64,000 bases of DNA from Enchytraeus crypticus (taxonomy: Eukaryota; Annelida; Clitellata; Enchytraeida; Enchytraeidae): positions 2,704,501 through 2,768,500 of the forward strand of contig CAJHZI010000794.1 in assembly GCA_905160935.1 (NCBI GenBank), read 5' to 3'. The notes below the pieces were generated by a model, which was not told the origin of the DNA, searched no databases, and saw only the letters and a program-made list of their open reading frames with translations. The translations under genes were made by a program, and so were the position numbers. Shown piece after piece: positions 14,601-62,053 of the stretch (the stretch's first letter is position 1; every line of letters begins with the position of its first letter).

Positions 14601-16757
14601 GTTGAAGTTTGATCGACTAACCAACGCTCTTGTCATCCCAATCTTCGAGCAAATCATCGACAACCATTACATACACTGACGTCTTTGTCTTGCACTCCAC
14701 GTCCTACATAACACACAATCTTACTATTTGCAGCAGGATTAATCATCAGTTTCTATGGGGTAAATGCCATTATAAATGTCAATTTAAGGAACCTTAAATT
14801 ACATTACTTTATATTGAATCACATTACTTTATAATGAATTAGTGTTTATGTATACATCACAGTAATCATAAGCCCAGAAGCATTGTATACAAACTAACTT
14901 GTTAGAAATTTAGCATTGATCACTTAAATAATTAATCAAATCCATATTAAATAGTATAATTATATTATCTACCAGCGACGCTTAACGAGCAGCTGTGTGC
15001 CATATTTATATGTTGTTGTATTTTGACCCTGCCCATCATTTATCACATAACTTTCGGCTTAAAATTAAAAATTAACTGCTGGTTCTTTACTGATGTGAAA
15101 AAAATAAAGACTGAAATTAAAGTAAGTAATCTGCTATTGCTTCTCATATTTAATTTTATATCACTAACTCTTACATAATTAATAGCAAGAATGGTTAGAT
15201 ATTAGACTGAAAATCTGTAGGTGCCAGATTAAAATAATAATAATAATAATAATATTAATAAAGGTTTAACATCATATAACTGGCTGGAGCCAGTGGCGAA
15301 GTCGGTAAGATACTCGACCGCGGATCAGTTGATGCGGGTTCAAATCCTGGGCTCGCCCGTCACTGACATTGCTTTCGAGTGAGGAAATTGACGTTAACCT
15401 TAGCTTTTTTTACCAGCTTTATCAGTTTCCTCATCCAGGGATGATGTCAGGAATGTCAAATATTGCGTTCCACATTTGTTGCGGTTGGACTAGAATTCAG
15501 CTACTAGGTAGATCAGATAATAATAAAAAATTTAATACTACCTCAAACACCCCCAAACATCTGCCCAATTCACCCTTGACCCCTGCTTCCTCATAGACCT
15601 CCCTCACTGCGGCCACACGGGGGTCCTCAGTGGGCTCTATCCCCCCTCCTGGTACAATCCAGTGATCCTGGTTCCTGCTGGCCGTCACCATCAATACCTA
15701 CACAATACAATACAATACAATACCTACACAATACCTACATGATATAATACAATACAGTACAATACCTACACGATACCTACACGATACAATACAATGCACT
15801 ACAATACAACACAATACAATACAATACAACACAGTACATTACAAGACGATACAATACAATACAACAGCAACGTAATTTAGTACAGTAAAAAGCATTTTCA
15901 GAACAATCAGTAGAAGGTACATTAACTTATAACATAACAAAGCACACATTTTTCCCCGAGTTGTGTCTGGGCAACTGAACAGTAACCGCTAACTGCATGT
16001 GTCATAAGAGGCGATTAGGCAAAAACTGAGGAAGGTAATGCGAAACCATCTCAGAAGCTATAATTTTCAACAGATGAAACAGGCTAAATAAGGTATGGAT
16101 ATGAAAACTTTTTGTGAAGGAATTATTTAACTTGTTAATCAATAGAGTGCCCTCTATGGAGCGTGATAACAGACTCTGAGTATGACTATGTACATTGGAC
16201 CTGCCACTTAGCATTTTCTTCTCATACAATTTTATTATAATTAAGAACAAAGTTCAATAAAACAAGAGAAGTGAAATTCGTAAAGGTTAAATTGTTTTCT
16301 TTGAAAAAGTTGCTGTCGAATGACCTATATAGTTTACTGGGATATAAAAAAATATTACCTATGGATATTAAAAAATTAATACCTATACAAATTTTTAGCA
16401 TGAGCAATATTTGATATCAATTAAGAATACAGTACTGATGTAGCCACTGTACAGTAGCTATATCAATATTGCATTCCTGATTGATATCTACTATTCAGAA
16501 ATCAAAGCTCACAATTGATGACATCTAATCTAAAATAGAATTTTAAAAAATTCCTTGAATAAATTTATTCCAATACAAGTGGTTTTAATCAAATAAACAT
16601 CAGATTATTTTAGTATTGCTAGAGAAATGACACAGAAAAAAAATTCCTTGAACTATACCTCTTGCTCTGTTCTATCTCGAACACAGACGCAGGCGGCACG
16701 AAGTCGAAAGCCGTTTGCATCATAAGTTCGAATCTGATTTAGTTTTTCCTTAACCAT
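11671..16757 (-). CDS. NUDT3: Nudix hydrolase, diphosphoinositol polyphosphate phosphohydrolase (DIPP) type
   Basis: Four exons on the minus strand, in coding order 16757-16659, 15697-15542, 14703-14622, 11825-11671; phases join as 0, 0, 1 and give 163 residues (human NUDT3 has 172). It begins MVKEKLNQIRTYD, close to the vertebrate DIPP N-terminus, so this ATG is likely the true start. Exon 2 holds WIVPGGG and a complete Nudix box at residues 51-73 (G51, E57, R65-E66, E69-E70, G72). Exon 3 ends in LLEDWDDKSVG and exon 4 opens RKRQWFKL, both DIPP signatures. The C-terminal tail after QCTYLDLL is divergent. Known role of the family: cytosolic Mg-dependent removal of the beta-phosphate from InsP7/InsP8, diadenosine polyphosphates and some mRNA caps. 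Splice sites are consensus GT-AG. Assignment to NUDT3 rather than NUDT4/10/11 is arbitrary, since invertebrates usually have one such gene. No promoter motif was recognised. Confidence 0.93.
12690..13950 (-). mobile_element. LINE-B copy, 5'-truncated, with reverse transcriptase remnant
   Basis: In the intron between Nudix exons 3 and 4, same strand as the gene. 13774-13583 encodes FVDFEKAFDRIDW (motif A) and, after a frame break, 13520-12846 encodes VRFADDQGMVAGS (motif C), [19 protein letters not shown], and RKKRWIGHIL. The 3' end carries CATGGACCTGCCAGTAGGCA and a short GAGAG tail. The C-terminal sequence resembles RTE-like endonuclease-RT elements; the clade is tentative. Confidence 0.88.
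13955..14590. repeat. 40-bp minisatellite in the Nudix intron
   Basis: About 15 tandem units containing ATTAGAGTGACTGATGATTA and AATAAAGAAATAAATT, with a longer variant at 14030-14200. The array stops about 30 bases from the donor of the exon 14703-14622. Confidence 0.92.
15228..15450 (+). mobile_element. SINE1 with adjoining LINE-A-like scraps
   Basis: 15282-15412 is SINE1 (AGATACTCGACCGCGGATCA, GGTTCAAATCC, GAGGAAATTGACGTTAACC), flanked by an AATAAT run with AAAGGTTTAAC and by CCTCATCCAGGGATGATGTC, both LINE-A tail sequence. It lies 90 bases from the donor of Nudix exon 2. Confidence 0.75.
15691..15870. repeat. (AATAC)n-type array spanning the acceptor of Nudix exon 2
   Basis: On the plus strand, CAATACCTACAC recurs at 15693, about 15720 and 15755, mixed with plain ACAATAC units. 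On the coding strand this is the acceptor context GTGTAG followed by GTATTG, the first two codons of the exon. Confidence 0.8.

Positions 16758-62053: not shown

Follow-up and report, generated by a model that had tools for sequence, protein, structure and literature searches.

The window and its genes

The stretch of DNA analyzed here (the window, 64,000 nucleotides) corresponds to C696:2704501-2768500 of the Enchytraeus crypticus genome (524 Mb in 802 contigs). The observations on this stretch are carried by three genes. Their exon boundaries were read off the sequence and the phase was then checked; it is consistent throughout in all three models.

15542..16720, minus strand: NUDT3-like NUDIX gene, two exons, with the acceptor at 15697 and donors at 16659 and 15542; the outer start was placed by eye
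22561..42822, plus strand: receptor PTP gene model with 24 exons, reaching from the F5/8-type domain to the end of D2 (no exons found upstream)
50279..62053, minus strand: PP1-like phosphatase gene model of nine exons that runs from VQLPETHI to the stop, 286 aa (no first exon found)

The Pfam matches are NUDIX for the NUDT3-like gene, Metallophos and STPPase_N for the PP1-like gene, and F5/8 type C for the outer part of the receptor PTP, where two FN3 matches also occur (both under the curated Pfam cut-offs). The EGF-like exons of the receptor PTP are assigned by eye. The nine-exon PP1-like chain gives a stop-free translation up to its end. The PF00102 profile matches exons of the receptor PTP, and the best protein match of this gene is that of the siboglinid annelid Ridgeia piscesae (58% identity). 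The two phosphatase domains, D1 and D2, have an intron at the same signature position, HC|S AGVGRTG in D1 and HC|H DGVRQSG in D2 (the bar marks the junction). The D2 signature reads HCHDGVRQSG (41334-41340 and 42110-42140). As in many receptor PTPs, the D2 domain is probably inactive.

Other elements occur in the window. Two ORFs, 12846-13661 (minus strand) and 32561-33896 (plus strand), resemble by eye fragments of LINE-type reverse transcriptase, and the second sits within an intron of the receptor PTP. A short dispersed repeat (15290-15410, 17920-18045, 54330-54460, 57925-58000, and 60620-60720) starts at about GATGTCGGTAAGAT; with GGTTCAAATCCTGGGCTCGCC present in several copies and a B-box-like stretch, it has a SINE-like look. 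No tRNA was found in the window by ARAGORN. Two longer local duplications carrying an acceptor region are visible by eye, one of an EGF-like exon start with its intron end (24390-24490 and 24780-24880), the other of the intron end ahead of 22561 (21790-21890 and 22380-22480).

Tandem arrays over splice junctions

In the window, TRF yields 48 merged arrays with a period of at least 10. The initial annotation held that, at eight or more splice sites in three unrelated genes, the intron begins or ends with tandem copies of a unit that includes the junction; nine sites were named as clear and three as looser. An edit-distance search of the adjoining intron looked for copies of each named junction, and shuffled queries served as its control. 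Tandem copies including the junction are present at 10 of the 12 named sites, with shuffled controls near zero. The arrays are the following.

15692..15864, minus strand: 11/42-bp units over the acceptor TGTAG|GTATTGATG of the NUDT3-like gene (TRF and copy search)
22440..22593, plus strand: 76-bp unit, 2.0 copies, over the receptor PTP acceptor 22561, with 33 exonic bases (TRF and copy search)
25237..25608, plus strand: 188-bp unit, 1.9 copies, over the donor 25368|25369 (TRF and copy search)
28400..28534, plus strand: 57-bp unit, 2.4 copies, over the donor 28434|28435, with 35 exonic bases; one extra copy (TRF and copy search)
36303..36490, plus strand: 26-35-bp units, about 6 copies, over the donor 36318|36319; five extra copies (copy search)
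40559..41074, plus strand: 38/76-bp units at the donor 40558|40559, copies of CCCGAC|GTTAGT; four extra copies (TRF and copy search)
41321..41949, plus strand: 41-51-bp units over the donor 41340|41341; 15 extra junction copies (TRF and copy search)
52407..52726, minus strand: 41/50-bp units over the PP1-like donor 52702 (CATCAG|GTAGTATTAG); seven extra copies (copy search)
53701..54146, minus strand: merged array of 22-62-bp units in the PP1-like gene, donor 54141; two extra copies, worn (minus-strand TRF)
59100..59430, minus strand: worn copies of the acceptor 59100 (TTGCAG|GATATATGG); weak (copy search)
61590..61862, minus strand: ~90-bp unit in two to three copies over the donor 61848 (GGATAG|GTGAGT); end coordinates by eye

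All nine clear sites (22561, 25368, 28434, 36318, 41340, 15697, 52702, 54141, and 61848) have junction copies, and the recurrence in the NUDT3-like, receptor PTP, and PP1-like genes is real. At acceptor 15697 (the number is that of the first exon base), the motif is short, with about 6 exonic bases per unit, and there are seven matches at or in the array against a shuffled control of 1.0 over the whole searched stretch. At acceptor 22561, the one extra copy is identical. The unit of 25237..25608 starts at the 7th base of the EGF-like exon (assigned by eye) and takes in the donor and the intron start, with one extra copy; the search likewise finds one extra junction copy at donor 61848. Donor 36318 lies within the D1 signature and donor 41340 at the equivalent position in D2, and the units of the two arrays differ. 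The looser sites fare unevenly. At 40558, the TRF array starts with the first intron base, yet the copies found contain exonic bases; at 59100, there are 3 matches, each with at least 6 edits per 24 bases, for a control of 0.5; at 38803, the edit-distance search of the adjoining intron finds no junction copy.

Further arrays had been described as stopping within a few bases of a splice site. By minus-strand TRF, the array 53701-54146 fills the intron between donor 54141 and acceptor 53694 of the PP1-like gene, leaving a gap of 6 bp at the acceptor (the plus-strand TRF array falls short of the donor), as described. Next to 29234, the TRF array ends at 29195, about 39 bp short. The array near 62700 is real by TRF (62702-63008), the exon beside it being putative.

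Chance tests within the window

The window models contain 67 junctions (34 acceptors and 33 donors), and an array is taken to cover a junction when it holds at least 4 bases on each side. With circular shifts of the plus-strand TRF arrays in the gene spans, 7/67 junctions are covered vs. 8.6 expected (P = 0.77), which is no excess. In the gene spans, arrays cover 5.8% of exon bases and 14.9% of intron bases; minisatellite arrays make up 8.4% of the surrounding 264 kb. Since arrays are excluded from exons, an edge-based null is needed instead of the coverage null. It gives 6/33 donors vs. 1.0 expected (P = 0.0007) and 2/34 acceptors vs. 1.6 expected (P = 0.48). Whether junctions are chosen more often than by chance, as had been claimed, thus depends on the null model: the coverage null speaks against the claim and the edge null, at donors, for it. 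The coverage null alone, with arrays barred from exons, was dropped as a way of settling the matter.

In the window, copies accompany 8/33 donors vs. 2/34 acceptors (P = 0.045). A donor bias, in which the first donor wins and donor duplications are better tolerated, fitted these counts and was rejected because the polarity is reversed outside the window. The window had been picked for its striking look, and the unbiased sample consists of the junctions outside it.

Junctions outside the window

A genome search gave 150 scored PTP exon matches among 236 candidates. The PTP sequences fetched comprise 29 HC|S introns, taken from matches that end between profile positions 177 and 180, 31 exons spanning positions of about 34-82 together with their two flanks, and the donors closing the following exon in 20 cases. 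Two further sets are three CCT genes of the TCP1 family, chosen for no other reason than their match to it (L102, L103, and L104, presumably CCT5-, CCT4-, and CCT3-like), and five genes recognized by eye in the 200 kb beside the window, with domains of peptidase M28, NLI-type phosphatase, ANKRD13, inositol polyphosphate kinase, and GH3. The total is 122 donors and 95 acceptors, or 217 junctions, after removal of a probable duplicate contig and of uncertain sites: L062 (which appears to duplicate L060) and L094 (donor uncertain) were left out, as were CCT exons without a clear boundary and junctions of neighboring genes that could not be placed. Two PTP matches running beyond profile position 180 were not taken as HC|S introns, and the acceptors of 5 HC|S loci and 6 exon-34-82 loci were not located.

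In the copy test, a 40-base window over the junction is compared with 450 bases on the intron side, allowing at most 11 edits and skipping low-complexity intron windows. Among the CCT junctions, 17 of 20 donors and 17 of 20 acceptors have enough sequence. Matches at the threshold (10-11 edits) are those of L025, L103:2703, and L104:4748 and, in the window, of 28199 and 37685. Outside the window, copies occur at 22/207 testable junctions (donors 7/118, acceptors 15/89). Windows far into the intron (200-300 bases) have copies in 35/391 cases (16/209 and 19/182), and windows in the exon interior (50 and 75 bases in) in 2/368 (donor side 0/119 and 0/96, acceptor side 2/85 and 0/68). Shuffled queries in the PTP and window sets give 0/330 and 1/240. 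Between junctions and far-intron windows, the difference in rate is not significant for donors (P = 0.66) or for acceptors (P = 0.17). Junctions thus act like intron, and exons are protected. These three rates fit one of the explanations first offered, namely that selection keeps only duplications leaving one intact site.

By TRF, arrays span 21 of the 217 junctions outside the window. Junction copies are therefore not peculiar to the window, and this small sample suggests that they are common across the genome. By gene set, copies are found at 5/77 donors and 5/46 acceptors of PTP genes, at 1/17 donors and 8/17 acceptors of CCT genes, and at 1/24 donors and 2/26 acceptors of the neighboring genes. 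At the CCT acceptors, one can see by eye from one to several upstream copies of the acceptor, extended by at most some 80 bases of the next exon. In these housekeeping genes, nearly half of the tested acceptors and a single donor are affected. Over all sets, copies are more frequent at acceptors than at donors (P = 0.02), which goes against a donor-specific process.

Mis-assembly or uncollapsed haplotypes could also create copies. The identical copies at 22440-22593 would agree with such an artifact, and some assembly duplication may remain: contigs C501 and C742 (with L060 and L062) read alike around one exon and are probably uncollapsed haplotypes. On the other side, many array copies have diverged by several edits, and the 21 spanned junctions outside the window have different units. 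As the source of the arrays, an assembly artifact is very improbable.

Array edges at junctions outside the window

The expected number of spanning arrays was taken as the density of array edges (10-400 bases into the intron) multiplied by the mean unit length and the number of junctions; the edge test assumes that edges are uniform and that every junction-spanning duplication is tolerated. With overlapping arrays merged, 7 donors are spanned vs. 3.2 expected, and 14 of the 95 acceptors vs. 2.9 expected. With the best non-overlapping arrays, the counts are 7 vs. 2.84 for donors and 11 vs. 2.52 for acceptors, and both ends together give 18 vs. 5.4, a ratio of 3.4 (P = 1.4e-5, an optimistic value since sites of a family are not independent). 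For array matches of at least 80%, 90%, and 95%, the observed and expected numbers are 17/4.5, 8/2.3, and 4/1.2, with ratios of 3.3-3.8; at 90% without the CCT genes, they are 7/1.8. In the 95% class, there are 4 acceptors vs. 0.74 and 0 donors vs. 0.47. The excess is uneven between gene sets, with 7 CCT acceptors vs. 0.4, 5 PTP donors vs. 1.9 (all five at one homologous site), 5 PTP acceptors vs. 1.9, and, for both ends of the neighboring genes, 3 vs. 1.3.

A slower decay of copies anchored in conserved exon sequence was considered as a source of the excess and rejected as unlikely, since the ratio barely moves with identity (the 95% class consists of 4 arrays, all at acceptors).

A mutational process favoring junctions had been put forward from the window. 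Transcription-linked breaks, R-loops at the borders of exons, or some property of the splice-signal sequence would make junctions hot spots for tandem duplication. The edge excess outside the window, alike at higher identity, and the merged-array acceptors argue for such a process, and so does the recurrence of different units on one homologous donor described in the next section. Against it, the coverage of junctions equals that of intron windows, the circular shift in the window shows no excess, and the edge excess is uneven, with 3 spanning arrays vs. 1.3 in the five neighboring genes. On this evidence, we regard such hot spots as rather unlikely.

The HC|S intron of PTP genes

A donor is present at the HC|S position in 29/29 fetched loci (which were chosen because the match stops there) and in both D1 and D2 of the window gene. 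Some PTP matches, e.g., C208, C370, and C150, cross this position without an intron. From these comparisons, the HC|S intron is widespread in the PTP family, although not universal, and its presence in 29 paralogous domains and in both window domains indicates that it is old and predates the arrays.

Among the 29 paralogues, arrays span the HC|S donor in five (L022, L025, L036, L038, and L044), with unit lengths of 24, 43/134, 76, 126, and 139 bp, and the acceptor in 2 of the 24 located (L039 and L050). None of the 49 other PTP donors sampled is spanned (5/29 vs. 0/49, P = 0.006). With the window domains included, donor arrays occur in at least 7 of 31 paralogous domains. Because the units are unlike in length and sequence, the arrays are taken as having arisen independently. 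In one pair of close paralogues, L036 has two copies of a donor-spanning unit (~140 bp, exon end included) and L042 has one; the difference is most simply read as a gain in L036.

The arrays could also be traces of intron birth, with a new intron arising from the tandem duplication of an exon segment containing AGGT. Such a model has been proposed for the amphioxus globins (PMC3087553). It is contradicted at the HC|S position, where the intron shared by the paralogous domains is not a new intron bounded by duplicates, and the arrays counted here cover one intron end, except in the filled PP1-like intron. An origin of the arrays in intron birth is thus hardly credible.

Comparison with known systems

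The intron 7 repeats of human F7 are a similar case. In amphioxus, minisatellite-like "mirages" occur in Adh3 and in the globins BflGb6 and BflGb9, with units of 10-160 bp (PMC3087553), and further ones in PGBD5 and TnC (PMC3902484); undisturbed splicing and length instability are reported there. As in amphioxus, the arrays of the worm place minisatellite-like copies over the exon-intron boundary at either intron end and leave the exon intact, with units of tens to about 160 bp and many copies with AG/GT. The spanning units measure 12-146 bp outside the window, and 188 bp in the EGF-like exon case inside it; both donors and acceptors are spanned, as seen in both samples above; GT is retained in 46 of 54 extra donor copies, the acceptor copies being uncounted. 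The worm arrays differ from the amphioxus mirages in the phylum, in the sample of 217 junctions from many genes with controls, and in the repeated involvement of one homologous intron. Whereas normal splicing and length instability are reported in amphioxus, the worm arrays are known from assembled sequence.

In human CBS, a VNTR with a 31-bp unit (c.1444_1467+7, 24 exonic and 7 intronic bases) has 16-21 copies, and more repeats reportedly lower CBS activity; in the 844ins68 allele, a 68-bp duplication, the 3′ end of an intron is duplicated together with exon sequence, and use of the distal site gives a normal mRNA (PMC2630376, PMC5188458). Worm units span the donor as does the CBS VNTR. CBS offers two structures in one human gene, whereas the worm arrays lie in many genes and are known from sequence alone.

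Intron gain by tandem genomic duplication likewise involves splice motifs in a tandem duplication, but at the HC|S position old introns are lengthened at one end. Introners, too, place repeated sequence at intron ends. In contrast, the units here hold local gene sequence, and an exact 24-mer from the 28400 array (the sole unit checked) has one match in 524 Mb, unlike the dispersed unit of an introner or transposon.

In the open-licence literature searched, we found no report of junction-spanning repeats in annelids. PMC12783039 describes minisatellites inside an intron and duplicated fourth exons. Judged by their anatomy, the worm arrays are of the same kind as the mirages and the CBS repeats; as far as searched, what is new is the lineage, along with the controlled counts and the recurrence of arrays at one homologous intron.

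Origin of the arrays

We consider it likely that the arrays are mirages, i.e., minisatellites from local tandem duplications that straddle a splice junction and are tolerated as long as the exon and a splice site stay intact. The genome makes many minisatellites, as their share of the surrounding 264 kb indicates. Duplications internal to exons would be removed by selection. When a duplication spans a donor, the whole exon and its donor would stay upstream and the extra copies would shift into the intron; when it spans an acceptor, the last acceptor would stay adjoining the whole exon. The spliceosome would pick the copy adjacent to the exon, the other copies being spliced out, and later copies would be added and decay as in any minisatellite.

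The anatomy of the arrays, their recurrence with different units at one homologous intron, the depletion of exons, and an array carried by one member of a close pair of paralogues are observed directly. Use of the exon-adjacent site and near-neutrality of the arrays are what we infer from them. Much of the pattern follows from a minisatellite-rich genome and selection that guards exons, not junctions. Against tolerated duplication stands the 3.4-fold under-prediction of junction-spanning arrays by the uniform neutral model, leaving a roughly threefold excess over uniform array edges beyond what this reading covers. The CCT acceptors (8/17) and the HC|S donors (5/29 vs. 0/49) look like hot spots, which would be unexpected from a position-blind process. 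Possibly, and we propose it only tentatively, splice junctions are preferred sites of tandem duplication, being duplicated at both intron ends roughly three times as often as intron sequence and with local hot spots, so that intron ends grow outward by copying their own splice sites.

Until now, amphioxus mirages have been reported from single genes, and the two structures in human CBS amount to isolated curiosities of this kind. If about one in ten junctions carries them (21/217 sampled), they become a countable process, and this opens the questions of how introns lengthen by repeats, how the spliceosome chooses between identical adjacent sites, and whether duplication is drawn to junctions. 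These questions can be addressed directly with the L036/L042 pair and the 31 paralogous HC|S introns.

Extra splice sites and their use

In the mirage reading, the exon-adjacent donor is the one used. Twelve donor arrays were checked, a set without those of 54141, L104, and the IP6K-like gene, and in 11 of them use of the next donor would lead to a stop or a frameshift, so that the first donor must normally win. The retention of GT in the extra donors by itself argues neither for nor against a role.

It is improbable that the extra sites are useful, as backups or in alternative splicing, and that selection keeps the arrays for them. Besides the retained GTs, the best extra copy scores as high as the true donor in several arrays, and two arrays are open in frame, one at 28434 (57-bp unit) and one in the neighboring IP6K-like gene (42-bp unit). 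Set against this are the stops and frameshifts just mentioned and the variation of units and copy numbers between array-bearing paralogues.

Splicing at the second donor of the 28434 array would be in frame and stop-free and would add 19 aa. In the IP6K-like gene, the open donor-spanning array lies at C696 ~2696210-2696460 (L011 ~1710-1960); from its sequence, the protein could gain 14-residue repeats through the extra donors.
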